Assembly: GCA_003999685.1 (NCBI GenBank)
Contig: CP021233.1
Coordinates: 1,342,656-1,406,655, forward strand
Reading direction: 5' to 3'
Source: Taiwanofungus camphoratus
Taxonomy: Eukaryota > Basidiomycota > Agaricomycetes > Polyporales > Taiwanofungaceae
Length of the DNA stretch: 64,000 nucleotides
Shown: piece after piece, positions 24,893-64,000 of the stretch
Numbering within the stretch: the stretch's first letter is position 1
Layout of the letters: each line of letters opens with the position of its first letter
Made by a program: the position numbers and the translations under genes
The notes under the pieces: model-generated
What the model was told of the DNA's origin: nothing
The model's input: the letters and a program-made list of their open reading frames with translations, nothing else
Databases searched by the model: none

Positions 24893-27551
24893 TTATCGCC
24901 GCACCCTCTTATCGCCACTGTGATCATATGCCGTCGTGTCGTCCGAAACCGTGCTCTGCGAGTATGTAGTAGTATAAGTGGACTCCCTCCCACCTCTGCT
25001 CCCTCTCTGATCGAAATTCACTGTCGTACTTTCAAGGGTGATGCTCCCACTAATATTTGCACCTCCCCATCCACGCCCTTGCGAGCGATGTCTTTTACCC
25101 CTACGTCGCCCGCCAACATGACCGCTATTTCCGCGCCTGCTCGTACTTGTTCTCGCTGGTAGATCCGCTTCCACGTCTGTACGTTGCAGACCGGAAGGAA
25201 TATCTTCCCTGGGTGTTCTGTAGTCCTGTGCCTTGCGCAGGCTCTGACGATGTAGCTCTCCTGAATGCAAGGCATGATCCGGCTCACTAACTTCCATACT
25301 CTCATCCACGTTCACCTCAGCCGATTGAACCGTAAAGTTATAGTCACTGGGCGCCATAGATCCGTGATACCCGGAGGTCCGTGAGCCATGCAGAGGTTCC
25401 GGGGCCTCTTGAGATGTTGATTCAGGCGACAGCTTCCACGGGGTATATACCGAATCGAAACCAGAACTTAGAGGCCACGAGGGGAAAACCGGCTTCGAAG
25501 GTGAATTGGGTGGCAAGACAACCCTCATGAAGTCCCAGGCGGCTTGCGCAGACGTCCGATGTGATGGTGCCCATGCCTGTGTCGCCTGACGCTCAATCTC
25601 ACGCATACAGTCAAGGCGGAACCTGTCTGATGCCGAACGTGCTGTATATGCAGGAGCAGGGAAGCTGATAGATCCATGATGAGTTTTTATCGAAGGGAAA
25701 CAGATAATGAGAGAACTGGGTCAAGCAGATACAACAGGTACTAACGAGATCACTCACCGCGATCCGATATGATTGAGAATGAGCCTTTCTGCATCTATCT
25801 GCCGCGCGAATGCTCCAGCCATGGCTGGCGTGCTGTGACCACGCTCCCGTGCCTTTTCAGCGACACTAGCAAATGTACGGTGCCGTCCTGTACGTTGCTG
25901 CGGATCGATTGAGGGGGGCATGAATGCATCGGTGGCCTCATGAACAAGAAGCGAAACAGGAGTGGGTGTGAAGGCAATCTCATCCACAGTGAGTTCCTCG
26001 TCAGAAAACTCGCTCTTATGAGAGGTGGATGTTGCATTAGGGGTGATCCCGATCGTAGAAGCAGACTGGTTGGAGGGCCCCGCAATGGCATTACCGGAAG
26101 ACCGCACGGATGCAGTTGAAAGTGAGGGAGATTCAATTAGGGGAAAGATCGTAGACGGGTCTGATGTGTCGCCTAAAACGACGACCTTCCGTGGGACAGG
26201 AGTGCTTGGCGCAAATGGCTTGCGGGGAATCTCGCGAATGATGTATCCAATACAAGGATCTGTTGGTATTCAAAAGTGGAATGGCCAGTGAGCCTAAATA
26301 TGCATTGAGGCAATGGCAGGGCAATGCAACTGGAGCCACTGACCTCTGTGTGCGATCGGACCCGCATCCACTGTAACCCTTGCTTCGCTCTTCCGTCCAC
26401 CAACTGTACGCTCAATTACGATGTCTCTCCAAAAGCCATCCGTATCACACATCACATCTCGCCCTGGGGCCTCATTCTCTAATCTACCCTCTTCTAAGGG
26501 CCCCGCTATATCCACAACGTTTGACTCCGTGCCGGCAAATATCGAAGGTTGTTCATCAGGTCCAAGTAGCTCATGAACAGCATAGCGCTCCGCAGTACGC
26601 GTATGTGTGAGCGCAACCAGCGTACGAAGGTAGCGGCGCAGACCGCTGGGACCATAAATATCGATTCTAGGTGGGCCCGTAGATGCTAAAGTAGGGGAAT
26701 TAGGAGCAGGAGGTTTAGGAATGCCAAGCACGTTGCGAAGAATGGTAAGGAGGCCCATTGTGTGGTCCGCTATATGAAAATAGAACTGTCAGTATGAATC
26801 TATGGGAAGATATGACCCGAGACTTCTAGCGCAATTGACTGAAGAGGGAACGCGCATCATTTCGCGGAAGGACTTGGTAAACAGCTTCGAGTAAGATAAC
26901 AAAGGCACACAAAACGGGACTCAGACAACCATTCGGAAAAAAGCACAAGGTTGCTGTATAGACCAATAGACCATTTTATAATCATTGTATAACTCAAAGG
27001 TCACTGTAGATGTAGAACATCATGTCTCCATTGCTGACCGACAGCGTCAGAAGGCGGGGATTGTCCGTCAAACGGCCAAGTTCGCGAAAATTAAAAAAGC
27101 CCGTGGAATTTGTTAGCAGACTGACAGAGATCATAAAAAGTGATAATTCCAACGCTCGGTATTCGGTAGAATTGATTTGTAAATTATTTTATGAAATCCT
27201 TTGCGTTCTCGAAGAATGTGCCAAACATGTGGACGCCACAGCTACATACCATGCATGTGTGTAATGAAAATCTTGCTTATTTTGCTCATTTTAAGGCGGC
27301 GTGCGTCGTGGAAGGGCTGAAGTGCGAACTGGCGCACTGTACCCTCGGCGCAGTCAACCACTGAACAGCTTGTTCAGCACTTGCATCAAAGATGAGACAC
27401 CACAAAGGATGGGTGAGCTGTGCATTGTTTACGCACTCCATAGAGACCCGTCGCCGAGTGGTTCGATAACAAGGCTTGAGCAGTTGCGTGTGTCAGTTGG
27501 GCCACCACCGCTCGTGGTTCCCAGGAAGGTGACGATGATGTCGTGAGACAT
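24893..27551 (-). CDS. tRNase Z (tRNA 3' endonuclease), metallo-beta-lactamase fold
   Basis: tRNase Z cuts the 3' trailer from precursor tRNAs in the nucleus or mitochondrion. Five exons, complement(24893-25664, 25758-26259, 26344-26769, 27250-27360, 27437-27551), give 641 residues in frame. Catalytic and family motifs in order: FLGTTSGGG at the N-terminus, VDCAEGTVRQ, the zinc-binding ITHMHADH (His-x-His-x-Asp-His) near residue 75, PPRIDIYGPSGLRRYL, DAGPIAHR, VVVLGDTSDPS, LLVHEAT, GHSTPAMAGAFA and LILNHIGSR. The C-terminal ~150 residues are polar and Gly/Arg-rich. The short form is usually ~300-370 residues and the two-domain long form over 800, so this is a single-domain enzyme with loop and tail extensions. 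Intron 2 (26770-27249) is 480 bp, far longer than the others. Confidence 0.93.
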
Positions 27552-39906: not shown

Positions 39907-41508
39907 ATGGCCAGCAACGTCGTCTACAATGCCTTAATAGTAAGCATTGGAGGGAAGGTCATAGATATGGTTTCAACTGCTGGCCCATTCAGATATCGGC
40001 TTCTTGATTGCGTCCAGTTTGTTCAACACGGGACCTTGCGTGTCCACGAATTTCTAGATTTTCCCTGCGTCTCCTATTCAGTCATATCATATGTCTAGCG
40101 TGGAAATCCGATCGACTCTCTCGTAATTGAACAGCAGCGTTGGAAAGAATTCGGCGTTCGAGGAGCGGAGGACGGTGATCCTATCAGCCTTGACGTCTTG
40201 CTCCACGTCTGTACGGCGTCCCTCCAGCATAATGTTGAATACCTGTGGTTGGACAGGTTATGCATCCTACAATCTGACTATAATGATAAGGCCTGGCAGA
40301 TCAGTCGTATGCATCGAATCTACCAGTCGTGCGAAACATGCATTGTTCTTCCTGGGGGTATACGACGATTAGTCGGATTAGAAGAAGAGACGACCTGGAT
40401 TCATCGTGCCTGGACTCTGCAGGAGGTCCTGGTTCCGAAACGTGCAGTGGTCCTGTTTGCTTGGCAATGGGGTTCCGGCGAGTGGGAGGCATATACGCAT
40501 TGTACAGTCCAGGAGGTCATTCCATGTGAATCCGCTGTGTCCCCAGTGGCAGAGATCCTTCACGCTACTATCACTGCTTTGTACGGTGGTAATTTCTCCA
40601 GGAAAGAGCCTGGGCGACAGGCAATACAAGGCGCAGCGCCATCCATTTTTCGTAGCCGGGTTCCTACAACTGACACTGCCGCCAAGGCCGCACAATGTCA
40701 GATTGTGAGTCTCTTTGGTGCAATGCAGCTTCAAGAACCGGATGCGAAAGTGCAGGCAATATGGCGGAGTGCATTGATGCGTACGTCTTCGCATCCTGTG
40801 GACATGGTCTTTAGTATCATGGGTCTATTTGGCGTATCCCTCGATGCCCGTGCGTTCCACCAGGACGGTCGATTAGGAGCAACAATAGCGCTTGCCAAAG
40901 GGATTCTGCGCAATGGGGGAAGGGCTAGCTGGATCGGGGTGTCATTCTATCTGCCGCCTTGCAAACAGCTGTCCTCTTTTCCAGATTTTCCAGAGACAAG
41001 CGTAGAAGGACGGGCTTATGTCAAGACCGAAGATGGCAGACATGAGGTAGCGGAATTGATGAATGGCCCATACGAGACCGCGTGGTGGTTAGCCGGGGTG
41101 CCAAAGGGAAGTATGAACGATACGGGTTATTTCAAAGTCACCACCAAGGCGGCACCCCTAGTCCTTACAAGAATACAACGCGATCAATTTCGGGAATGGG
41201 AAGACAATATGTCGCTCGGTGATGACCTCGAACGAGTACCAGTCGTCGCACTGAATAAGACAGTCTGGCTGGCCCAGAACGAGTTGGACGAGGCTGATCA
41301 TTATGCCATTTTCATCGGGGCACAGCGGCCCTTTCCGATACGTGGTATGCCTCGCTGGCATGGTGGATGGTCACTAAGGGCTATTTTGGTGGAAAGACAC
41401 AGCTCAGTGAAATTTCATCGGACGTCGTGCTTCATGCTAGGCGACGTCTTCGAAGCTTTTATCGATTCGTGGAAAGAACATACATTTGAAATTGGAGGTC
41501 CCCTCTAA
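39907..41508 (+). pseudogene. HET-domain (heterokaryon incompatibility) gene interrupted by one in-frame stop
   Basis: HET-domain proteins trigger cell death or incompatibility when unlike fungal cells fuse. A single uninterrupted reading frame of 534 codons runs from ATG 39907 to the stop at 41508, except for one TAG at 40096-40098 (codon 64). Before it the frame reads FRYRLLDCVQF...SVISYV; after it RGNPIDSL, then the HET core YLWLDRLCILQSD, MHRIYQSCETCIVLPGG and IHRAWTLQEVLVP. In this family ISYV is normally followed by Trp, so TGG to TAG is the simplest reading. The ~300 residues after the HET domain are unassigned. Alternatives: a recent null allele, a sequencing error, readthrough, or an in-frame 54 nt intron (see rejected list). 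Apart from this stop the frame is well kept. Confidence 0.75.
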
Positions 41509-55038: not shown

Positions 55039-56913
55039 ATGGCTTCTGCTTTCACTCCCATTTCTCACCCAACTGGCTCCCATTCCATCGCTGGTGGCCC
55101 TCAAGTCACTGGGACGCCCTTGATTGGCTCGTCATCTTTGAGGATGTTTGACGGTACATCTTCAGGATGACCTGCCCCATATCCTGCGTCTGACGCACGG
55201 GGATCTCAAACCCAAGCCCAAGTTGAGGCACTATGACTTGCTCGGGGAGCTTCCTTTGAGATGGAGACTACCTCTGTGTCTTCTCCACCTCCCTCAGCTG
55301 CTGCAGAGGCTTTCATTGTTACAAGGCGGTAATGGTGCGAACATACATTTTCACTTCTCTTCACTATACCGGACTAGCAGATCGTGTACACTTACAATTA
55401 TCACCATCATTCCTGATGGGCTGGCCGTCACCCGCTTAGTTATGGACTGTTCCTCAGAAGGGACCACTCAGGCCTCTAACTTATGGACACTTAGGTGCTG
55501 GTACCCATGGGAGTGAGGGCTGGCTTGCCCTAAACCCACCATAGTACTTAAGGGGTTGGTGTTACCAGGGGGTTCACCCTGATAATGCTGCAGAAGCTTG
55601 GAGCGGTGTGCAGCGAAGGGTCGAAGAGGAGCGACAGTGACGACAAGTCACAATCCTCGGTAGTCTTCAACTATAAGCCCTATGTAGTCGCGATAGTCTT
55701 TTACGGGCTTCTTGAGGTGCAAGGAGATGTGTGAAGACTAGCGTGTATTGGTACTAATGCGTAGTACACTTTAGGAAAGGATGAACGAAGAGAATACGAC
55801 TAGGGGAACCTCCAACAGTGGGACCCCCCTTTATACTGCCACCATCAACCCCCAGGTATACTAGCAGCCCCCCAGAGACCGCATAAGGTGAGAGGAGTCA
55901 GCGGCCCAAAAGTACATAATTACCATGGCGCAAGCGGGGACGGTCGGCCCGTCAGTCAATCTGGGTAAATAAGGTGTGGAAGGGATGCCGCGCGTCCATG
56001 GTGTGACAAACAAAGGGAAAGAAAAAATGAACACGTCTCTGGTCCTATCCGACAGTAACAGTTGGCTCACTGCGGAGCACCCCAATCTTGTCCTCCTTAG
56101 TTACACTGTGTACTTTGATGCCGTCGTTACCATTTGTACTTTACGACTGGGCTTAGGCCCCTATACCTTCGTCTATTCAACGGGTCGCCTTAGACCATCT
56201 ATATCCTTGTGACTACACTAGGATTTAGGCTGTGACTTAGCCCGCAACTCTCTCGAGACCGTTGGGCTAGCGGTTGAAGACTTAGACGTGTACTCGTCGT
56301 CAGCCAGGCTGACTCCTCGTTTACACTTCACTCCTGACTACTCAACAACCCCCCGTCACAGTAGTCACCTATGGGCGTAGACCCCCCATAACATTAGGAC
56401 AAGATTCCCTACAAACTCTATCTCAGAATAGCGAATTAGAACGTGAACAAGCGGAAGAAACTGGACCCTCACCAACGTCCCCATAGAAAGGATTGGGTAA
56501 GACCAGTGTCCCTATTGAAAGAGACTGGCAGGAGGATCACTTGACTACAAGTGCGTACCATCAGTGTTGAGTTGAAGGATAAGAAACACCGGAAAGATGG
56601 AGAAGTTCCTGATGATAGTCCGGAGAGCTATCATCTGGCGAAGAAAATTGAAGAAAGGAAAGGAGGAAGACCATATACTCCGACCAGAAACAACAGAAGA
56701 AGCAGCCCTAGGGATCCCCTGGGATGGACCGCTTACCCCAAGCGACAACGACCTCAGACTTTCTCAGCCCTCTACTGAAGTCCTTGAACAGAGGCAGAGA
56801 GGCACAGGCTCCAGGCAAGGACACCAACACAACCACCCCAATACAGCTCTGACACCTCATCACTGGAAGAAGAGGAGCTGCTACCGATGCAGGAAGCCAG
56901 GACACTTGGTCAA
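55039..56913 (+). mobile_element. Decayed retrotransposon fragment with gag zinc-knuckle remnant
   Basis: The best evidence is at its right end. The frame 56597-56913 is open and ends CYRCRKPGHLVK, a CCHC zinc knuckle (Cys-x2-Cys-x4-His) typical of retrotransposon gag, but the last Cys is missing because telomere repeats begin there at 56914. Upstream the sequence is broken by stops. An ATG at 55039 opens a short Ser/Thr/Pro-rich frame (MASAFTPISHPTG) of the kind that begins some fungal gag genes. No reverse transcriptase or clear LTR was identified, so the superfamily (Ty3 or Ty1 type) is open. It is not expected to be functional. Confidence 0.5.
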
Positions 56914-56972
56914 GGTTAGGGTTAGGTTAGGTTAGGGTTAGGTTAGGTTAGGTTAGGTTAGGTTAGGTTAGG
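56914..56972 (+). repeat. Interstitial telomere-repeat block (TTAGG with some TTAGGG)
   Basis: About 59 bp of tandem TTAGG units, including two TTAGGG variants near its left end. It abuts the truncated gag and is followed by the first pseudo-LTR, so it looks like a former chromosome end. Confidence 0.9.
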
Positions 56973-57824
56973 AGGTGGAGCGAGCAACGACGAAGGAGTT
57001 GCGAGCGTTGAGAAGACTTAATGGAAGCTAGTACTAATTAGCCCGATATCGCTATCGGACGGCTAATTTCGACTAAGTCTCATCAGAGCACTAGCGTCGC
57101 TTATAACCAAGTTCAACCAAAGTCACGCTTATGGTTGAGTCATGGCCCGGGGGCCGGTGACTAAATCAGTTTGACCGTACCAGGGCAAAGGGTTGCAAGT
57201 GGGAGCGAATCACGTCTCTCCCTCCTATCCTAATCAGTCAGCGCCAAGCAAAAGACATTGTCTAGGTTCGCCTAGACACCATTACTGATCAGATGTCAGA
57301 GTCATCTGATTAAGATTAGAATCCAGACCCGGGGCCTAGGCCTCAGGTGACTAGATAAGAGATAGGAAGTCCGGGCCGAAGGTTAGTCCGGGCCGGACAT
57401 AGATAGGAACAACATAGCCGGTGCCGCACCGATCATGTGACCGGGCCGCTTTCCGGGCGTCTACTAAGGGCAGCGTGGACCACTGAGGAAGCATCATGTC
57501 ATGGCACAAACCTGGGAATCCCCGTGAACACCCTGTCCGAGCCATGCGGGGCGGGGGAAGGATATTCAATAGGACCGCGTCCAGCAAGTTGCCGCACCGT
57601 GCTCTAGCATGTTACAACCCACAGATCACCAGATCATGGACTAACACAGCAGAGGGGCGCTGGGGACCATAGTAGTTATCGCGCGCTCCGCTAGCATGCG
57701 GGAACGGCGCGCACCGGGCCACAGTGAAGGGCCGGTCCGTACTAAGTGCCGAACATATCATGTGACACGTAAGGCGCCTATCTATTTTTAGGCAACCCTA
57801 AGCGCAGGACTGGGAAAGTCCGGC
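56973..57824 (-). repeat. PLE pseudo-LTR, copy A (diverged)
   Basis: An ~850 bp non-coding unit that aligns along its length with copies B and C but differs in several blocks (for example around 57245-57260, 57335-57355 and 57525-57580), by rough eye estimate ~10%. It contains the hammerhead at 57027-57095, small inverted repeats (such as GTCTAG...CTAGAC near 57260) and ends in a GGAC...GTCC hairpin followed by two TTAGG units that join copy B. Confidence 0.8.
57027..57095 (-). ncRNA. Hammerhead ribozyme, copy A
   Basis: Read on the minus strand, this 69 nt segment has the full hammerhead core. CTGATGA is at 57086-57080, a 3 bp helix II (GAC-TTA-GTC) at 57079-57071, GAAA at 57070-57067, then helix III (TTAGCC/GGCTAA) capped by a CGATA-GCGA-TATCG hairpin, and the cleavage triplet ATT ending at 57036. 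Helix I is 9 bp (57095-57087 with 57035-57027, one G-U) and is the open helix, so the fold is type I. Cleavage is predicted between 57036 and 57035. It lies on the RT strand. Confidence 0.88.
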
Positions 57825-58700
57825 GGTTAGGTTAGGAGGTCTATGTATCAACACTACAAGGGCTGCGAGTGCAGGGCAGGAAAGAGGCTTAGAGGAAGCT
57901 AGTACTAATTAGCCCGATATCGCTATCGGACGGCTAATTTCGACTAAGTCTCATCAGAGCACTAGCGTCGCTTATAACCAAGTTCAACATAAGTCACGCT
58001 TATGGTTGAGTCATGACCCGGGGGCCGGTGACTAAGTCAGTTTGACCGTACCAGGGCAAAGGGTTGCAAGTGGGAGCGAATCACGTCTCTCCCTCCTATC
58101 CTAATCAGTCAGCGATGAGCAATCATCATTGTCTAGATTCGCCTAGACACCATTACTGATCAGATTTCAGAGTCATCTGATTAAGGTTAGAATCCGGACC
58201 TCAAGCCTGGGCTCAAGATCCGAGATAAGAGATAGGAAGTCCGGGCCGAAGGTTAATCCGGGCCGGACATAGATAGGAACAACATAGCCGGTGCCGCACC
58301 GATCATGTGACCGGGCCGCTTTTCCGGGCGTCTACTAAGGGCAGTGTGGACCACTGAGGAAGCATCACGTCATGGCACAAACCTGGGAATCCCAATAAGC
58401 ACGTCCCTGATATGGCTACGGCCAAAGACCAGTAAGACATACTATGTGGACCGCGTCCAGCAAATTGCCGCAGTATGCTCTAGCATGTTACAACCCACAG
58501 ATCACCAGATCATGGACTAACACAGCAGAGGGGCACTGGGGACCATAGTAGTTATCGCGCGCTCCGCTAGCATGCGGGAACGGCGCGCACCGGGCCGCAA
58601 TGAAGGGCCGGTCCGTACTAAGTGCCGAACATATCATGTGACACGTAAGGCGCCTATCTATTTTAAGGCAACCCTAAGCGCAGGACTAGGAAAGTCCGGC
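57825..58700 (-). repeat. PLE pseudo-LTR, copy B
   Basis: An 876 bp unit lying 3' of the RT gene in transcript sense. By eye it is identical to copy C (62599-63474), and the identity continues through the next telomere block into the RT gene. It carries a hammerhead at 57898-57966 and ends in a GGAC...GTCC hairpin next to the TTAGG block. Confidence 0.9.
57898..57966 (-). ncRNA. Hammerhead ribozyme, copy B
   Basis: Same 69 nt as copy A, base for base. The CTGATGA core is at 57957-57951, GAAA at 57941-57938, and predicted cleavage is between 57907 and 57906. It lies within the 3' pseudo-LTR of the intact element, on the transcript strand. Confidence 0.88.
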
Positions 58701-58800
58701 GGTTAGGTTAGGTTAGGTTAGGATTAGCGTTAGGTTAGGTTAGGTTAGGTTAGGTTAGGTTCGGTTAGGTTAGGTTAGGTTAGGTTAGGGTTAGGTTAGG
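58701..58800 (+). repeat. Internal telomere-repeat block of the PLE
   Basis: 100 bp of TTAGG units with marked variants: ATTAGCG near 58732, TTCGG near 58761, and one TTAGGG near the right end. The same variants appear at the same places in the block at 63475-63574. Confidence 0.93.
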
Positions 58801-58890
58801 TCTGGTTTGAACAGACAACCCTAATACACCAACACACTAAGATAACGTTACACCTGATGTAACCGATGCTAATCAAACTGACTTAACAGT

Positions 58891-61800
58891 TTATATATCC
58901 ATTTCCAAAAGTACGTCATCCGCACTTTGGGCATTAATAACACTTCTGCGCCATTTACTTGCTAAGTCTGCGAAATTGGTTTCCCGCTTCCGAGACACAA
59001 GCCAGCGCTTGTCTAAGAATCCGAGTTGGGAAAGGTCTGCGACCTTCTCCGCCTCAATAAATCCGGTGGGTTTCCTTAGGTACCGCCCAGTCCATACCCA
59101 GCCCTCTTCTGCGCGGTTATCATGGACAGCCGCCGCCAGTGTAGAGATTTGATCAGACCGCCGGGCTTCAGCGGCGGCACGATCTGCTGCTGCCGAAGCA
59201 GCCGCCGTTTCGCGCGACAGCTTGCGCTGGGCTACTCGGGCGGGATCCCACCACTCCTCAAGCGTGGTCTGAACTGTGCCGGATAGGGTCGCATCCCGCG
59301 AACCCCCAGCCGAATAATCGAAAATCGGAGCGGCCGAGTTTTCCCAACTCGCCGAAAAGAAGTTTTTGAAGAAACTCAAAGACTCCACCCACGATCCAGT
59401 GACTCGTGTCATTAATTCATGAACATCGAAAGAATCCCATGAAGGGTTAAATTGCGATTTAATTACAAGTACGCCATCATTCGCATCCGCCGCTTTGGTC
59501 GAAGTTTGTTTAGTTTCCAAACGTTTCGCCCAGCGTACTGCTTTATGTGAATCAAGCCATGCAATAACCAGAGCAGGGGGATACCCACGGCCGATGTACA
59601 AATCGACAAGCCCTTTTAGGGCATCTAAGTAGTGTTCCAACTTAGAACTTAGCGTGGCTAAACGGCTCATCTCCCCAATGAACGTGCCTTTTTTAACGTC
59701 CTTCGGGTGGTGAGATATCCATGGTATTCTTTCATGATGGTTAAGTGCCTTCCGATATGGCTTATGTTCCACCCGGTTGGTAGCGGGGTCAATATAAATA
59801 AGCATGTCAAGGAATGGCGTTGCCCACTCCGACACTTCCCATGTTATAGTACAGCCAGTGTATGAAATACGACTGGTGCAGAGTTCAAGTGCCTCTGCTG
59901 CACTACCTGCTTCAACGATAGCGAATACATCATCGATGTACCGCCCATAATAAAGAAAGGGTGGGCTAACCTGCCCAGAAGGCCAGACTTTATTTTCAAA
60001 ATGGCATCCATAAAGGTTAGCTAGATCGGGCGAACATGCCACTCCCATAGCTAACCCACGCTTTTGAAGAAATGTGTGACCGTTGAAGTCAACTATTAAG
60101 TCGTAATTGGCTGATTGCATACACCGAATAAACAAGGCGTTGTAAAATTCGGGGTGGTCCGTTGATTGACTACCAAATGGATGACTAATGTACAATTTAG
60201 ATACAATGCCTACGCATTCTCTGAGGGGTACATTTGGGTAGAAAGCGACGACGTCGCCGGCCACAAGCCAATACTTTTTATATTTTAGTGTTTTAACCGT
60301 TGCTAACTTGCCAGCAAGGTCTTTGCTGCCATGTATAATAAAGGGCTCAGCCTCTATGATGGGTTTCAACAACTTGGATACTACTTTAGCCGCGGGGCCT
60401 TGAGCGCATGAGTGACAGGGCACAATAGGCCGCATCTTCACAGGTGTCTTATGGATTTTTGGGATACCATAGAAGATGGGAACCTTAGGCTCTTCCAACT
60501 CGCTCTCGGGACATTTTGACCGAAGGTATTTGGCTAACTGGAGTGTCTGATCGTGAGGCATAGCCCCTTCGACCCAATCGCTTAACTCCTTAACCCGCTT
60601 AGTAACCTTTTCTAAATACATCTGTCGCTGACCAGGGTTAATTTCCTGATAGTCAGCCGTATTCGACAGAAGTGAGTTGCAACCAGTAATGAACCATTCC
60701 CTTGTGACTACAGCAGCACCGAGGTTCTTATCCGTTTGGAGGATGAGGTAGTTATGCTCATCCAACCAGAGGCGAACTTTATCCAGGTCCACAAGTCGAT
60801 TAGGGCGACTTCTGGCTTTCAAACCGGGTACGACATTGCGTATGAATTCAGTGACGTATGTTTGCCCGCGTTTAAGACCAAGTTCGATATATTGGCTGGC
60901 CTGAGGCGCGTCGCTATCGCGCTTTAATCTCAAGTCGTAGTCAGGATCATATGGTGGTTGACTAATCCCTTGCCGCTCAAGGATTTTTTGTTTACAGGCA
61001 AAGTGTACTCTCCATCGTACACGTTCACAAAAATCGTCATAAGCGTTTTGAACTAACTCGCTTGAAGGGCGAGCGTACAGCATGTACTTAAGTCCGCAAG
61101 AAATGTGTATACTGATGTCCGCAGGTAAACTAACACCGTCGCCAACATGAACCCAAGTCCGGAACCTCTGTGCCTCGACTAAAGCTGCCGGTGCAAAGTA
61201 AAGGAGGGTGCGTGCCCCGACTGGTGTAGGAAGATCAAGTATACAATCAGGGTAAGTGGAAGGTTGCGAGAAGCGGAGTCGCGACCGAAGGACACACCGT
61301 ATCAATTCGGTCTCCCTTTCCCTTTCCCTTTGTTCTTCTTCGTCGAAGCCTTTTTCGACGAAGCGGCCTGCTTTTGCTTTGCCGCGCGCTGCGGAGCTTT
61401 GGGAGGGCGTCCTCCTGTGCTCATGCGCGCCGAACGATTTGGCGCCTTGCCTTTGCCCTTCTAGAATACGAGAGAGGGTGGCGCCAGGTAAGTCTTTTGG
61501 TACTGAACCGTGTACAAAACTAACCTGCTGTTTAACGTTCTTCGAGGTGCCCTCACCTTTCAACCGATGATCAACCGCATCGTCAATCAGTTTCTTTAAG
61601 GCAGCGGGGTTCTCGGTGGTGTCGCTCATCTCCACCTCCGCCACTGCCTTAAGGGCACTCTTCGCATTGGCTCGAGTCGCGGCATGTGCTAGCTGTGATT
61701 CGCGAATATTCACGACACGGAAGCAAAACCGAGGGAGCACAGCGACGAATCGCTTGTGTTCCGACTCGAGGACGGGGTCGTTCTGCCAACCTTCAATCTC

Positions 61801-62424
61801 GACGTTCCCGTCAAGAGAAGTTCTCCACTTAGGGACCCGCGATCCTTGTGAGATTGCAGCCCACTGAGTGTCAACCACGTCGCGCGCCTTCCCCAACATA
61901 GTAGTAGGGTCCAACGCGCCCTCGAAGAACGAGAGCTCAGCACGCTTTTGCGCAATGGCTAAAGCGAGTGCTTCGCGGCGAAACGTTTTAAATTTCTCCG
62001 CAAGAGCCCCTGGTTCCGCCGGGTGTGTTTCCAACCATGCTTTCGCAGACTGGAAAACGGGTTCCCCCATGCCTTGTAACTGGGGCGGAAGGGAACCGCT
62101 GGCAAGATGAGCCTCGAGCTCACCCACTTGCTTCGACAAAGAAACGCAGCGTTCCTTTGCTTCCGCAATGCTAGCCAGAACCGGGCGGAGTACCTCCCGG
62201 TATACGAGAGGCACGACTGATAATACGGTGTCAAATGTTTCAGCTGAAAGGACGGCGCGGAACTCATCGGCAATAGTCTCAAGTGACGTCGCTCCCATGG
62301 CATAAGCCAGCGAGGGGGGAGCAAGGTTCCGCGCAATAGCGGCGCGAAGTGATGCTCCACCTGGTCCTGCGGAAGTCGAACGGGTGGATCCAGGACGAGG
62401 TAGGCGATTGGCCATTGTAAGCAA
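58891..62424 (-). CDS. Penelope-like reverse transcriptase (1177 aa, no endonuclease domain)
   Basis: This protein would copy element RNA at an exposed 3' end. It is one intron-less ORF. RT motifs: motif A WLVAGDVVAFYPNVP (Asp near residue 724), motif B RGLAMGVACSPDLANLYG, motif C YGRYIDDVFAIV (YIDD at residues 829-832), then TPFLDMLIYID and the PLE thumb signature WISHHPKDVKKGTF...EMSRLATL. The first ~400 residues form a PLE-type N-terminal extension ending in a Lys-rich linker. The C-terminal ~230 residues contain an Ala-rich coiled coil (about 1050-1085) and a short Trp-containing end. No GIY-YIG nuclease is visible at either end, as expected for telomere-attached PLEs. The ATG follows a 174 bp leader. 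The ORF is intact, so it may be active. Confidence 0.92.
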   Translation of the reverse strand: MLTMANRLPRPGSTRSTSAGPGGASLRAAIARNLAPPSLAYAMGATSLETIADEFRAVLSAETFDTVLSVVPLVYREVLRPVLASIAEAKERCVSLSKQVGELEAHLASGSLPPQLQGMGEPVFQSAKAWLETHPAEPGALAEKFKTFRREALALAIAQKRAELSFFEGALDPTTMLGKARDVVDTQWAAISQGSRVPKWRTSLDGNVEIEGWQNDPVLESEHKRFVAVLPRFCFRVVNIRESQLAHAATRANAKSALKAVAEVEMSDTTENPAALKKLIDDAVDHRLKGEGTSKNVKQQVSFVHGSVPKDLPGATLSRILEGQRQGAKSFGAHEHRRTPSQSSAARGKAKAGRFVEKGFDEEEQRERERETELIRCVLRSRLRFSQPSTYPDCILDLPTPVGARTLLYFAPAALVEAQRFRTWVHVGDGVSLPADISIHISCGLKYMLYARPSSELVQNAYDDFCERVRWRVHFACKQKILERQGISQPPYDPDYDLRLKRDSDAPQASQYIELGLKRGQTYVTEFIRNVVPGLKARSRPNRLVDLDKVRLWLDEHNYLILQTDKNLGAAVVTREWFITGCNSLLSNTADYQEINPGQRQMYLEKVTKRVKELSDWVEGAMPHDQTLQLAKYLRSKCPESELEEPKVPIFYGIPKIHKTPVKMRPIVPCHSCAQGPAAKVVSKLLKPIIEAEPFIIHGSKDLAGKLATVKTLKYKKYWLVAGDVVAFYPNVPLRECVGIVSKLYISHPFGSQSTDHPEFYNALFIRCMQSANYDLIVDFNGHTFLQKRGLAMGVACSPDLANLYGCHFENKVWPSGQVSPPFLYYGRYIDDVFAIVEAGSAAEALELCTSRISYTGCTITWEVSEWATPFLDMLIYIDPATNRVEHKPYRKALNHHERIPWISHHPKDVKKGTFIGEMSRLATLSSKLEHYLDALKGLVDLYIGRGYPPALVIAWLDSHKAVRWAKRLETKQTSTKAADANDGVLVIKSQFNPSWDSFDVHELMTRVTGSWVESLSFFKNFFSASWENSAAPIFDYSAGGSRDATLSGTVQTTLEEWWDPARVAQRKLSRETAAASAAADRAAAEARRSDQISTLAAAVHDNRAEEGWVWTGRYLRKPTGFIEAEKVADLSQLGFLDKRWLVSRKRETNFADLASKWRRSVINAQSADDVLLEMDI

Positions 62425-62598
62425 GCGCAGGGTGCGTCAGGAGGGAGAAAATGAAAAGAGATCGGGCACCGAGCGAAGCAAAGGGCAAGCAGTCGGTATT
62501 CCTGGATCGGGTTGACGGGCGGAGGTGTCGGTGGCAGAACACGATAGCGCCGTCGAAAACCGAGATGCGGTATGAGAGACAGTTTGGAGGTGTTGGCT

Positions 62599-63474
62599 GG
62601 TTAGGTTAGGAGGTCTATGTATCAACACTACAAGGGCTGCGAGTGCAGGGCAGGAAAGAGGCTTAGAGGAAGCTAGTACTAATTAGCCCGATATCGCTAT
62701 CGGACGGCTAATTTCGACTAAGTCTCATCAGAGCACTAGCGTCGCTTATAACCAAGTTCAACATAAGTCACGCTTATGGTTGAGTCATGACCCGGGGGCC
62801 GGTGACTAAGTCAGTTTGACCGTACCAGGGCAAAGGGTTGCAAGTGGGAGCGAATCACGTCTCTCCCTCCTATCCTAATCAGTCAGCGATGAGCAATCAT
62901 CATTGTCTAGATTCGCCTAGACACCATTACTGATCAGATTTCAGAGTCATCTGATTAAGGTTAGAATCCGGACCTCAAGCCTGGGCTCAAGATCCGAGAT
63001 AAGAGATAGGAAGTCCGGGCCGAAGGTTAATCCGGGCCGGACATAGATAGGAACAACATAGCCGGTGCCGCACCGATCATGTGACCGGGCCGCTTTTCCG
63101 GGCGTCTACTAAGGGCAGTGTGGACCACTGAGGAAGCATCACGTCATGGCACAAACCTGGGAATCCCAATAAGCACGTCCCTGATATGGCTACGGCCAAA
63201 GACCAGTAAGACATACTATGTGGACCGCGTCCAGCAAATTGCCGCAGTATGCTCTAGCATGTTACAACCCACAGATCACCAGATCATGGACTAACACAGC
63301 AGAGGGGCACTGGGGACCATAGTAGTTATCGCGCGCTCCGCTAGCATGCGGGAACGGCGCGCACCGGGCCGCAATGAAGGGCCGGTCCGTACTAAGTGCC
63401 GAACATATCATGTGACACGTAAGGCGCCTATCTATTTTAAGGCAACCCTAAGCGCAGGACTAGGAAAGTCCGGC
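62599..63474 (-). repeat. PLE pseudo-LTR, copy C
   Basis: Lies 5' of the RT gene in transcript sense and distal on the chromosome. It is the same as copy B at every position I compared, including the small inverted repeats and the terminal hairpin. It would act as promoter region and 5' leader of the element transcript. Confidence 0.9.
62672..62740 (-). ncRNA. Hammerhead ribozyme, copy C
   Basis: Third copy of the same 69 nt fold, on the RT strand. Predicted cleavage is between 62681 and 62680, about 256 nt upstream of the RT start codon, so self-cleavage would set the 5' end of the RT-coding RNA. Confidence 0.88.
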
Positions 63475-63574
63475 GGTTAGGTTAGGTTAGGTTAGGATTA
63501 GCGTTAGGTTAGGTTAGGTTAGGTTAGGTTAGGTTCGGTTAGGTTAGGTTAGGTTAGGTTAGGGTTAGGTTAGG
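63475..63574 (+). repeat. Internal telomere-repeat block, second copy
   Basis: Same 100 bp as 58701-58800, including its off-consensus units, so it was copied with the element rather than added by telomerase. Confidence 0.93.
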
Positions 63575-63854
63575 TCTGGTTTGAACAGACAACCCTAATA
63601 CACCAACACACTAAGATAACGTTACACCTGATGTAACCGATGCTAATCAAACTGACTTAACAGTTTATATATCCATTTCCAAAAGTACGTCATCCGCACT
63701 TTGGGCATTAATAACACTTCTGCGCCATTTACTTGCTAAGTCTGCGAAATTGGTTTCCCGCTTCCGAGACACAAGCCAGCGCTTGTCTAAGAATCCGAGT
63801 TGGGAAAGGTCTGCGACCTTCTCCGCCTCAATAAATCCGGTGGGTTTCCTTAGG
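63575..63854 (-). pseudogene. 5'-truncated distal PLE copy (3' UTR and last ~62 codons of RT)
   Basis: Matches 58801-59080 exactly: the 90 bp 3' UTR and the last 190 bp of the RT reading frame (63665-63854). The match ends inside the RT gene at an internal TTAGG, where the terminal telomere array takes over. It is a 5'-truncated element that cannot make RT. Confidence 0.93.
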
Positions 63855-64000
63855 TTAGGTTAGGTTAGGTTAGGTTAGGTTAGGTTAGGTTAGGTTAGGT
63901 TAGGTTAGGTTAGTTAGGTTAGGTTAGGTTAGGTTAGGTTAGGTTAGGTTAGGTTAGGTTAGGTTAGGTTAGGTTAGGTTAGGTTAGGTTAGGTTAGGTT
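63850..64000 (+). repeat. Terminal telomere array, (TTAGG)n
   Basis: About 30 tandem pentamers of TTAGG run to the window edge, with one 4-base variant (TTAG) near 63915. The G-rich strand runs 5' to 3' toward the window end, as it should at a right-hand chromosome end. The true length is unknown because the window stops here. Confidence 0.95.

Follow-up and report, generated by a model that had tools for sequence, protein, structure and literature searches.

The stretch of DNA analysed here, hereafter the window, comprises 64,000 nucleotides of Taiwanofungus camphoratus (GCA_003999685.1, CP021233.1, positions 1,342,656 to 1,406,655) and forms the right end of contig C14 in a genome of 33.2 Mb and 15 contigs. 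Its outermost part holds what appears to be a Penelope-like retroelement (PLE), in which direct repeats, the pseudo-long terminal repeats (pseudo-LTRs), flank one long open reading frame (ORF) for a reverse transcriptase (RT) at a spacing of about 4.7-4.8 kb and hold the hammerhead ribozymes that are the subject of this study. Going inward from the chromosome-end telomere repeat, which was read directly as (TTAGG)n on the plus strand (63850-64000), the minus strand presents a C-terminal fragment of the RT gene (63576-63855), an internal (CCTAA)n tract (63475-63575), a pseudo-LTR with hammerhead and tail (62599-63474), and an uninterrupted ORF of 1,174 codons from its ATG, or 1,181 from stop to stop (58891-62415). 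Inward of this ORF the (CCTAA)n tract is found again (58701-58801), followed by a second pseudo-LTR with hammerhead and tail (57825-58700), a third and more diverged pseudo-LTR (56972-57824), a short run of telomere repeats, directly read on the plus strand (56913-56972), at the junction of array and host DNA, and the host DNA itself. The ORF and the pseudo-LTRs at 62599-63474 (its 5' repeat) and 57825-58700 (its 3' repeat), which are identical to one another, make up a complete unit; the third pseudo-LTR is a separate insertion without an ORF of its own, with a tail of type B and 91.1% identity to its neighbour. Pseudo-LTRs and a tandem or partial tandem organisation are both present. The internal tract, situated between RT gene and pseudo-LTR and carrying fixed interruptions (GAACC and GCTAATCC), is a frequent 5' end of inserted copies. 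Their 3' end is a telomere-complementary tail, which in the complete unit is CCTCCTAACCTAACC (57825-57839, minus strand), 67 nt past the predicted ribozyme cut; its homologue at 62599-62613 links there to the ORF side.

As the initial annotation had claimed, each of the three pseudo-LTRs carries a complete hammerhead on the RT-coding (minus) strand, at 57027-57095 in the centromere-most repeat, at 57898-57966 in the 3' repeat of the complete unit and at 62672-62740 in its 5' repeat, with predicted cuts at 57036/57035, 57907/57906 and 62681/62680, respectively. This is confirmed by direct reading, with which the proposed cut positions (57036, 57907 and 62681) agree, by a full structural descriptor and by covariation with a second subfamily, next to a sub-threshold match to an Rfam model. 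The three copies are letter-identical and read GCTAGTGCT-CTGATGA-GAC(TTA)GTC-GAAA, then helix III with a GCGA-capped hairpin, then ATT|AGTACTAGC; helix I has 9 base pairs, one of them G-U. Helix II of the hammerheads has 3 base pairs with a loop of 3-4 nt. The strict descriptor asks for the core, for U-H, and for at least 3 bp in helix II, 4 bp in helix III and 6 bp in helix I. It has three matches in the window, all of them between 56900 and 64000 on the minus strand; no other place in the window, on either strand, gives one. Applied to 214.6 kb of fetched chromosome-end DNA, it finds 140 hammerheads in sense orientation, 105 of family 1, to which the window copies belong, and 35 of family 2, and 0 in antisense; 20 shuffles of the sense strand yield 0. 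These 140 stem from 143 exact core sites, three of which fail the descriptor, and one additional copy, C3R 3583, has an altered core. The cleavage triplet is ATT at 104 descriptor sites and GTT at 36, and the hairpin is capped by a GNRA loop (GCGA, GCAA or GTGA) in 127 of the 140 and by an 8-nt loop in 13. Over the whole genome the core patterns of both families number 195 (131 of family 1 and 64 of family 2), with 0 matches for the reversed-pattern controls. A looser core pattern, CTGANGA...GAAA, was abandoned as too common for use (3,411 matches vs. 2,151 for its reverse).

The family 2 hammerhead has different stems on the same plan, with helix I GACGAGAGTA/TACTCTTGTC, helix II GCT/AGC and the cut at GTT|TACTC. 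Across 15 distinct sequences 96.5% of the cells are paired, vs. 75.2% after shuffling, slid structures pair in 21-45% only, and helix II is paired in 100%. Both sides have changed in 13 of the 21 pairs, mostly across the single split between the families, and additional paired changes within families are seen in helix III. One measure of covariation shows the opposite trend and weighs the other way, with 18 further pair types vs. 21.3 in the shuffles. As far as can be judged from these alignments, the hammerhead is under structural constraint.

The initial annotation had named the lack of a covariance-model hit as a result that would speak against it, and at gathering scores Rfam indeed gives no match in the window; the best sub-threshold match is RAGATH-1-hammerhead with 24.9 bits (gathering score 56.3, E = 0.94). 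With E allowed up to 2, Rfam matched neither of the two family 2 hammerheads in L036, and a genome search with RF00008 gave none either, which is uninformative as its controls were silent too. I do not regard the Rfam negative as decisive, because the covariation between the two subfamilies settles the hammerhead. A model built from the present sequences assigns 83.8 bits to the three window copies, which follows from its construction; the same model also gives a weak match at 25666-25727 on the plus strand (16.9 bits, E = 0.12), likely by chance. When folded, the hammerhead structure has -24.0 kcal/mol in family 1 (minimum free energy -27.1 kcal/mol) and -26.1 kcal/mol in family 2 (minimum free energy -27.4 kcal/mol). 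Two points weigh against the explanation preferred below: the competing family 1 fold, 3.1 kcal/mol lower, pairs the core, and AUU is a weak cleavage triplet. The hammerhead is real as a structure, with self-cleavage as its predicted activity.

The RT ORF was recognised by reading and by a match to Pfam RVT_1 that stays below the Pfam cut-off (E = 1.3e-4). PHROGs gave a weak RT match only, PDB sequence searches gave no match, and an AlphaFold model of the RT half was poor (pLDDT 35.5). Its motifs YGIPKIHK, YIDD and DKNLG are ones that I take to resemble those of PLEs. No endonuclease family, GIY-YIG included, was found in the ORF with Pfam at E up to 10, a search that a very diverged one might escape. 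The elements sit at chromosome ends in a single polarity, with the 5' side toward the telomere: all 58 RT matches are found no farther than about 35 kb from a contig end, and the same holds, again in one polarity, for every one of the 64 family 2 cores and for the 100 of 131 family 1 cores among the matches listed. At the protein level, the family 2 RT is mostly 88% identical to that of family 1. The giant unit with several accessory ORFs of a Terminon is not what is found here, the spacing being about 4.8 kb with one long ORF, nor is the element non-autonomous like a retrozyme, as it encodes an RT. The original placement of the hammerheads within pseudo-LTRs of a telomeric PLE is supported, and I consider it fairly probable, as one part of the overall explanation given below and at the strength of that whole, that the elements are Penelope-like retroelements, with no endonuclease found, which add themselves to chromosome ends.

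It had further been proposed that the ribozymes would cut tandem transcripts into unit-length RNAs with ribozyme-set ends. As an account of the ends of inserted copies, this is not supported. Past the cut, the copies complete helix I and pass through a spacer before they reach CCTCCTAACC and the telomere repeats. The distance from cut to tail is 60-75 nt in 137 of the 140 hammerheads (134 by a strict motif), two more, in C9R, reach the tail past a 1,163-nt intron, and C3R 3997 retains the spacer but diverges beyond it; an insert 3' end at the ribozyme cut is seen in 0 of the 140. The spacer (57840-57906 and homologues) occurs in types A, A', B, C, D and E plus a family 2 type, in all of which a short hairpin can be seen by eye; it is possibly an RT-binding or end-protecting element. 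On the 5' side, 25 full-length joins are present in the fetched DNA, with the link CCTCCTAACCTAACC exact in 24 and changed by one base in the other; 23 of them run unbroken into the hammerhead (within 260 nt), two are joined to it through the intron, and 0 of the 25 begin at the cut. The 167 joins that were classed comprise 51 in the internal tract, 59 truncations, 27 host or other, 11 telomere-like and 19 full length, the last an undercount that a recount raised to 25. Seven of the 59 truncation rows are mis-classed, C1R 7191 being a full-length join and six others (C2R 22930, C4R 2, C8R 2009, C9L 2, C11L 1 and C12R 8752) telomere-like. The truncated joins carry tracts of 5-71 nt. A full 5' pseudo-LTR is found in 14 complete units, for 13 of which the flank is in hand; 10 of these 13 start in the internal tract or a few nucleotides upstream of it (one at a chromosome end) and three extend into the RT gene.

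By these counts, the explanation that the hammerhead sets the ends of a linear mobile RNA is largely refuted for inserted copies, and I regard it as highly improbable. What speaks for it are two tail-only inserts of about 65-80 nt, with different tail types, which begin exactly at the cut nucleotide (C9:1733598-1733610 in C9R and C13:1458914-1458926 in C13R) and are possible fossils of the 3' cleavage product. They are weak evidence of cleavage in vivo, as at least three other positions among the truncations also recur twice; genome-wide, no family 2 insert starts at the cut. Cutting may still occur, provided that the RNA is joined again afterwards, as it would be in a circle.

The two repeats that flank one ORF are mostly very similar. 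For the units at the fetched chromosome ends I compared 23 flanking pairs directly, in sets of 16, 5 and 2; four of the 25 units had no partner compared directly (C2R 5987, C2R 11617, C6L 17223 and C10L 12855). In total, 21 of the 23 pairs are at least 99.3% identical and 16 are exact: 15 pairs in the set of 16 have 99.3-100% identity (12 without mismatch), the set of 5 has 99.5-100% (three without mismatch), and in the set of 2 one pair has 100% over 430 nt and one 86.8%. Adjacent pseudo-LTR pairs without an ORF between them served as a control, and 0 of 21 reach 99.3% (range 91.1-97.7%); these are all of family 1, with 4 of 25 rows left out for a shared pseudo-LTR start that makes them spuriously 100% identical. 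A second control of 192 random pairs has a median of 96.0%, and two of them reach 99.3%. The Fisher test for 21/23 vs. 0/21 gives p = 1e-10, with units that are not fully independent. In the window insertion, 57825-59081 equals 62599-63855 over 1,257 nt with 0 differences, on which basis the RT fragment ahead of the 5' pseudo-LTR is read as a second pass. Elsewhere, too, the identity extends into the RT gene, over 1,355 nt in C9R and 1,106 nt in C10L without mismatch, and over 979 nt at 99.5% in C13R. A stand-in pair formed via a duplication in C10L and left uncounted, 28876/33647, is 100% identical. Because the flanking repeats are 99.3-100% identical and their ORF-less neighbours 91-98%, it is very probable, judging from the DNA, that both pseudo-LTRs of nearly all complete units examined were copied from one template. 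As lineages differ by several per cent and the repeats within a unit mostly do not, the repeats would be reset at or near each insertion.

Several observations weigh against this conclusion. The pair C4L 1798/6568 has 96.9% identity and different tails, and C9R 9320/15251 has 86.8%; the latter lies inside a block of which a second copy occurs at an offset of 7,388 bp, which makes DNA exchange likely in its case. A second uncounted stand-in pair, C10L 12855/17626, reaches 99.07%. C12L 827 has 99.46% identity to its partner but 99.88% to a copy on a different arm, identical family 2 copies at separate loci are frequent, four of the pair overlaps span just 228-379 nt, and assembly polishing could homogenise near-identical repeats. 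Exact pairs that are tied with copies elsewhere are C12R, C3L 1564, C5R and C12L 7416.

Gene conversion or unequal exchange at chromosome ends could likewise have equalised the flanking pairs at the DNA level, and traces of such processes are present in the 16,021-bp duplication of C10L, the 7,388-bp offset duplication of C9R, the ends shared by C9R and C10L and the mosaic pseudo-LTRs. However, adjacent pseudo-LTRs less than 2 kb apart have not been homogenised (0/21), whereas those about 4.7 kb apart across the ORF have. As the neighbouring repeats are unequal, gene conversion is unlikely, and I consider homogenisation of the DNA improbable as the general cause. The C10 duplication is direct and lies at the left end of the contig, where it relates 1605/17626, 6374/22395 and 12855/28876 (L075-L077 and L054) with equal ribozyme-core offsets. 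Immediately inward of the telomere, the C9R and C10L ends (L085 and L075) both open with one and the same RT fragment, which points to exchange between chromosome ends.

Near-identical repeats without circles would also result if the RT ran off a linear RNA at its 5' end, within the 5' pseudo-LTR, and jumped to a pseudo-LTR of that RNA or of a sister molecule, comparable to the strand transfer of LTR elements. That switching or recombination does occur is indicated by the pseudo-LTRs themselves: the 59 unique family 1 pseudo-LTRs are mosaics, with distance correlations between 200-nt segments that are mostly near 0 and at most 0.23, and by this measure recombination or template switching in them is heavy. 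Jumps would be ragged, however, and 24 of the 25 full-length joins share an exact link, with the other one base off; moreover, in three cases (the window, C9R and C10L) the identical stretch reaches into the RT gene. Template jumping thus seems a rather unlikely origin of the paired repeats. An association of tail types with pseudo-LTR bodies that breaks at the cut was considered and dropped, the segments being hardly linked along the whole repeat.

The overall explanation that I prefer, and hold to be fairly probable, combines a telomere-primed internal start, one template and a hammerhead-made circle. A TTAGG overhang would anneal to CCTAACC at the junction of pseudo-LTR and ORF and would prime reverse transcription inside the RNA; the polymerase would then copy upstream through tail, hammerhead, pseudo-LTR, RT gene and ORF, often with a second pass over the same pseudo-LTR. 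Copying would usually stop once the internal (CCTAA)n tract has been copied, since the newly made DNA then ends in telomere repeat already; this tract may be a built-in cap and may account for the many solo pseudo-LTRs. The hammerhead would most likely cut the transcript for rejoining as a unit-length circle. Such a circle explains the identical repeats, the contiguity across the cut and the lack of full-length inserts that begin at the cut. For the circle step, hammerhead cutting followed by rejoining, my confidence falls somewhat short of even; it was slightly higher before a second non-identical pair and an intron in one repeat only were found. The complete course, in which a religated hammerhead-made circle is primed by TTAGG and copied for more than one round, so as to produce LTR-like repeats without LTR strand transfer and to end at a telomere tract that caps the chromosome, I propose tentatively.

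The intron in question is one of two 1,163-nt inserts in pseudo-LTR tails of C9R (C9:1724216-1724643, L082, and C9:1731604-1732031, minus strand), which match the Rfam family Intron_gpI (RF00028) with 57.7 bits (gathering score 50, E = 3e-13) on the sense strand of the retroelement tail. Their boundaries are T|CGAGG...GCATG|CCACC, and the sequences on either side, once joined, agree with the tail that lacks an insert. Searched over the genome, RF00028 gave at least nine matches, at least seven of them on C15 and two on C9; C15, of about 151 kb by subtraction, is probably the mitochondrial genome. To my knowledge, nuclear group I introns outside rDNA are very rare. The pair C9R 16708/22636 has repeats that are identical over 430 nt and the intron only in the 5' repeat. 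A single circle would be expected to put the intron in both repeats or in neither, unless the intron came later, and to that extent the pair weighs against the circle; either the intron arrived after insertion, or the template had separate tails, which for this unit would speak against a circle.

Separate tails in one RNA are what a linear read-through would provide, the main competitor of the circle. Here, transcripts of a head-to-tail array that span two pseudo-LTRs would be copied unchanged, the hammerhead would serve as a 3' fold that presents the tail, and any cutting would be incidental. All integrated copies examined, apart from the two tail-only inserts, are contiguous across the cut, as this would have it. 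Given a homogeneous array, such a transcript would yield the same DNA as a circle, which itself is deduced from DNA sequence alone, and this weighs against the circle, as do findings in other PLEs. The review of Terminons describes a fold that exposes reverse-complement telomere repeats (PMC6431247), and for a PLE of Anolis insertion in vitro is reported to be unaffected by ribozyme mutants, with no RNA reads that start or end at the cut (PMC11167929). A linear read-through, however, requires homogeneous source arrays, yet the identity between neighbouring pseudo-LTRs of one array is 91-98%; if nothing homogenised them, the two repeats of a lineage would be expected to diverge as far as lineages do. 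A structural role alone would also leave the conserved catalytic core and cleavage triplet unexplained. I regard the linear read-through as possible, though doubtful.

Type I hammerheads are described in PLEs and Terminons, mostly in minimal form and with an unknown role (PMC6155905, PMC7761336), which a review of 2020 calls "still a mystery" (PMC7761336). As in the pseudo-LTRs of known PLEs, the hammerheads here are of type I, in both pseudo-LTRs and on the RT strand. Cervera and de la Pena reportedly found in 2014 that fungal hammerhead variants of PLE pseudo-LTRs fold as monomers. Unlike most animal PLE hammerheads, which are described as minimal and without helix III (PMC6155905, PMC7761336), those found here have a helix I of 9-10 bp and a capped helix III. 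At the 3' ends of Terminons, according to a review, a hammerhead is connected to reverse-complement telomere repeats, which pair with the end of the chromosome (PMC6431247), and Athena elements contain embedded telomeric repeats (PMC10088271), a precedent for the internal telomere tract. With these elements of bdelloid rotifers, the present ones share the location at chromosome ends, no endonuclease found, 5' truncation by telomere repeats and head-to-tail arrays (PMC6431247, PMC10088271), as well as a hammerhead close upstream of reverse-complement telomere repeats (PMC6431247). They differ in their compact unit of 4.7 kb with one ORF, where Terminon/Athena elements are described as reaching 40 kb, and are set apart by a cut-to-tail distance of 60-75 nt, a three-helix and mostly GNRA-capped hammerhead and the telomere repeat TTAGG.

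ORFs in the window with HET and Etd1 domains point to a fungal host; the HET (heterokaryon incompatibility) domain ORF lies at 40099-41508, about 23 kb from the chromosome end. Endonuclease-deficient PLEs of fungi are presumably of the Coprina type. Fungi are described as having endonuclease-deficient PLEs only (PMC3846280), and the chromosome ends of Agaricus bear PLEs (PMC7473861); the likeness of the present elements to this clade consists in the fungal host and in no endonuclease having been found. In the Anolis PLE PAc, reverse transcription was shown in vitro to start inside the template, at the pLTR-ORF junction (PMC11167929). PAc resembles the present elements in its tandem pLTR-ORF units and in a hammerhead near that junction, and an internal start is proposed here as well; in contrast, PAc encodes a GIY-YIG endonuclease and its targets are AT-rich (PMC11167929), whereas the likely start site here matches the telomere repeat. 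Retrozymes likewise have a hammerhead in each repeat, and their RNA circles have been proposed as cDNA templates, but they are small and non-autonomous (PMC4918198, PMC7229834), whereas the element described here has its own RT and the circle is deduced from DNA. In the available parts of the literature on PLE pLTRs and circular RNA or hammerhead circularisation, no repeat-identity test in a telomeric PLE was found, nor, in those on PLEs and group I introns, a report of a group I intron in a telomeric PLE. That PLEs of fungi and of telomeres carry hammerheads is known already; new is the near-identity of the repeats that flank one ORF, and the anatomy together with the evidence for one template makes the present elements worth testing.

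With 195 core-pattern matches, two covarying ribozyme families and many insertions, the genome of T. camphoratus allows models of replication to be tested on DNA alone, and the group I intron in one copy is a ready splicing marker for testing them. The data argue against insert ends set by the ribozyme and for both repeats being copied from one template. If the circles are true, autonomous PLEs would join the retrozymes as circle-templated retroelements, and the addition of retroelements to chromosome ends would become open to study in a fungus.

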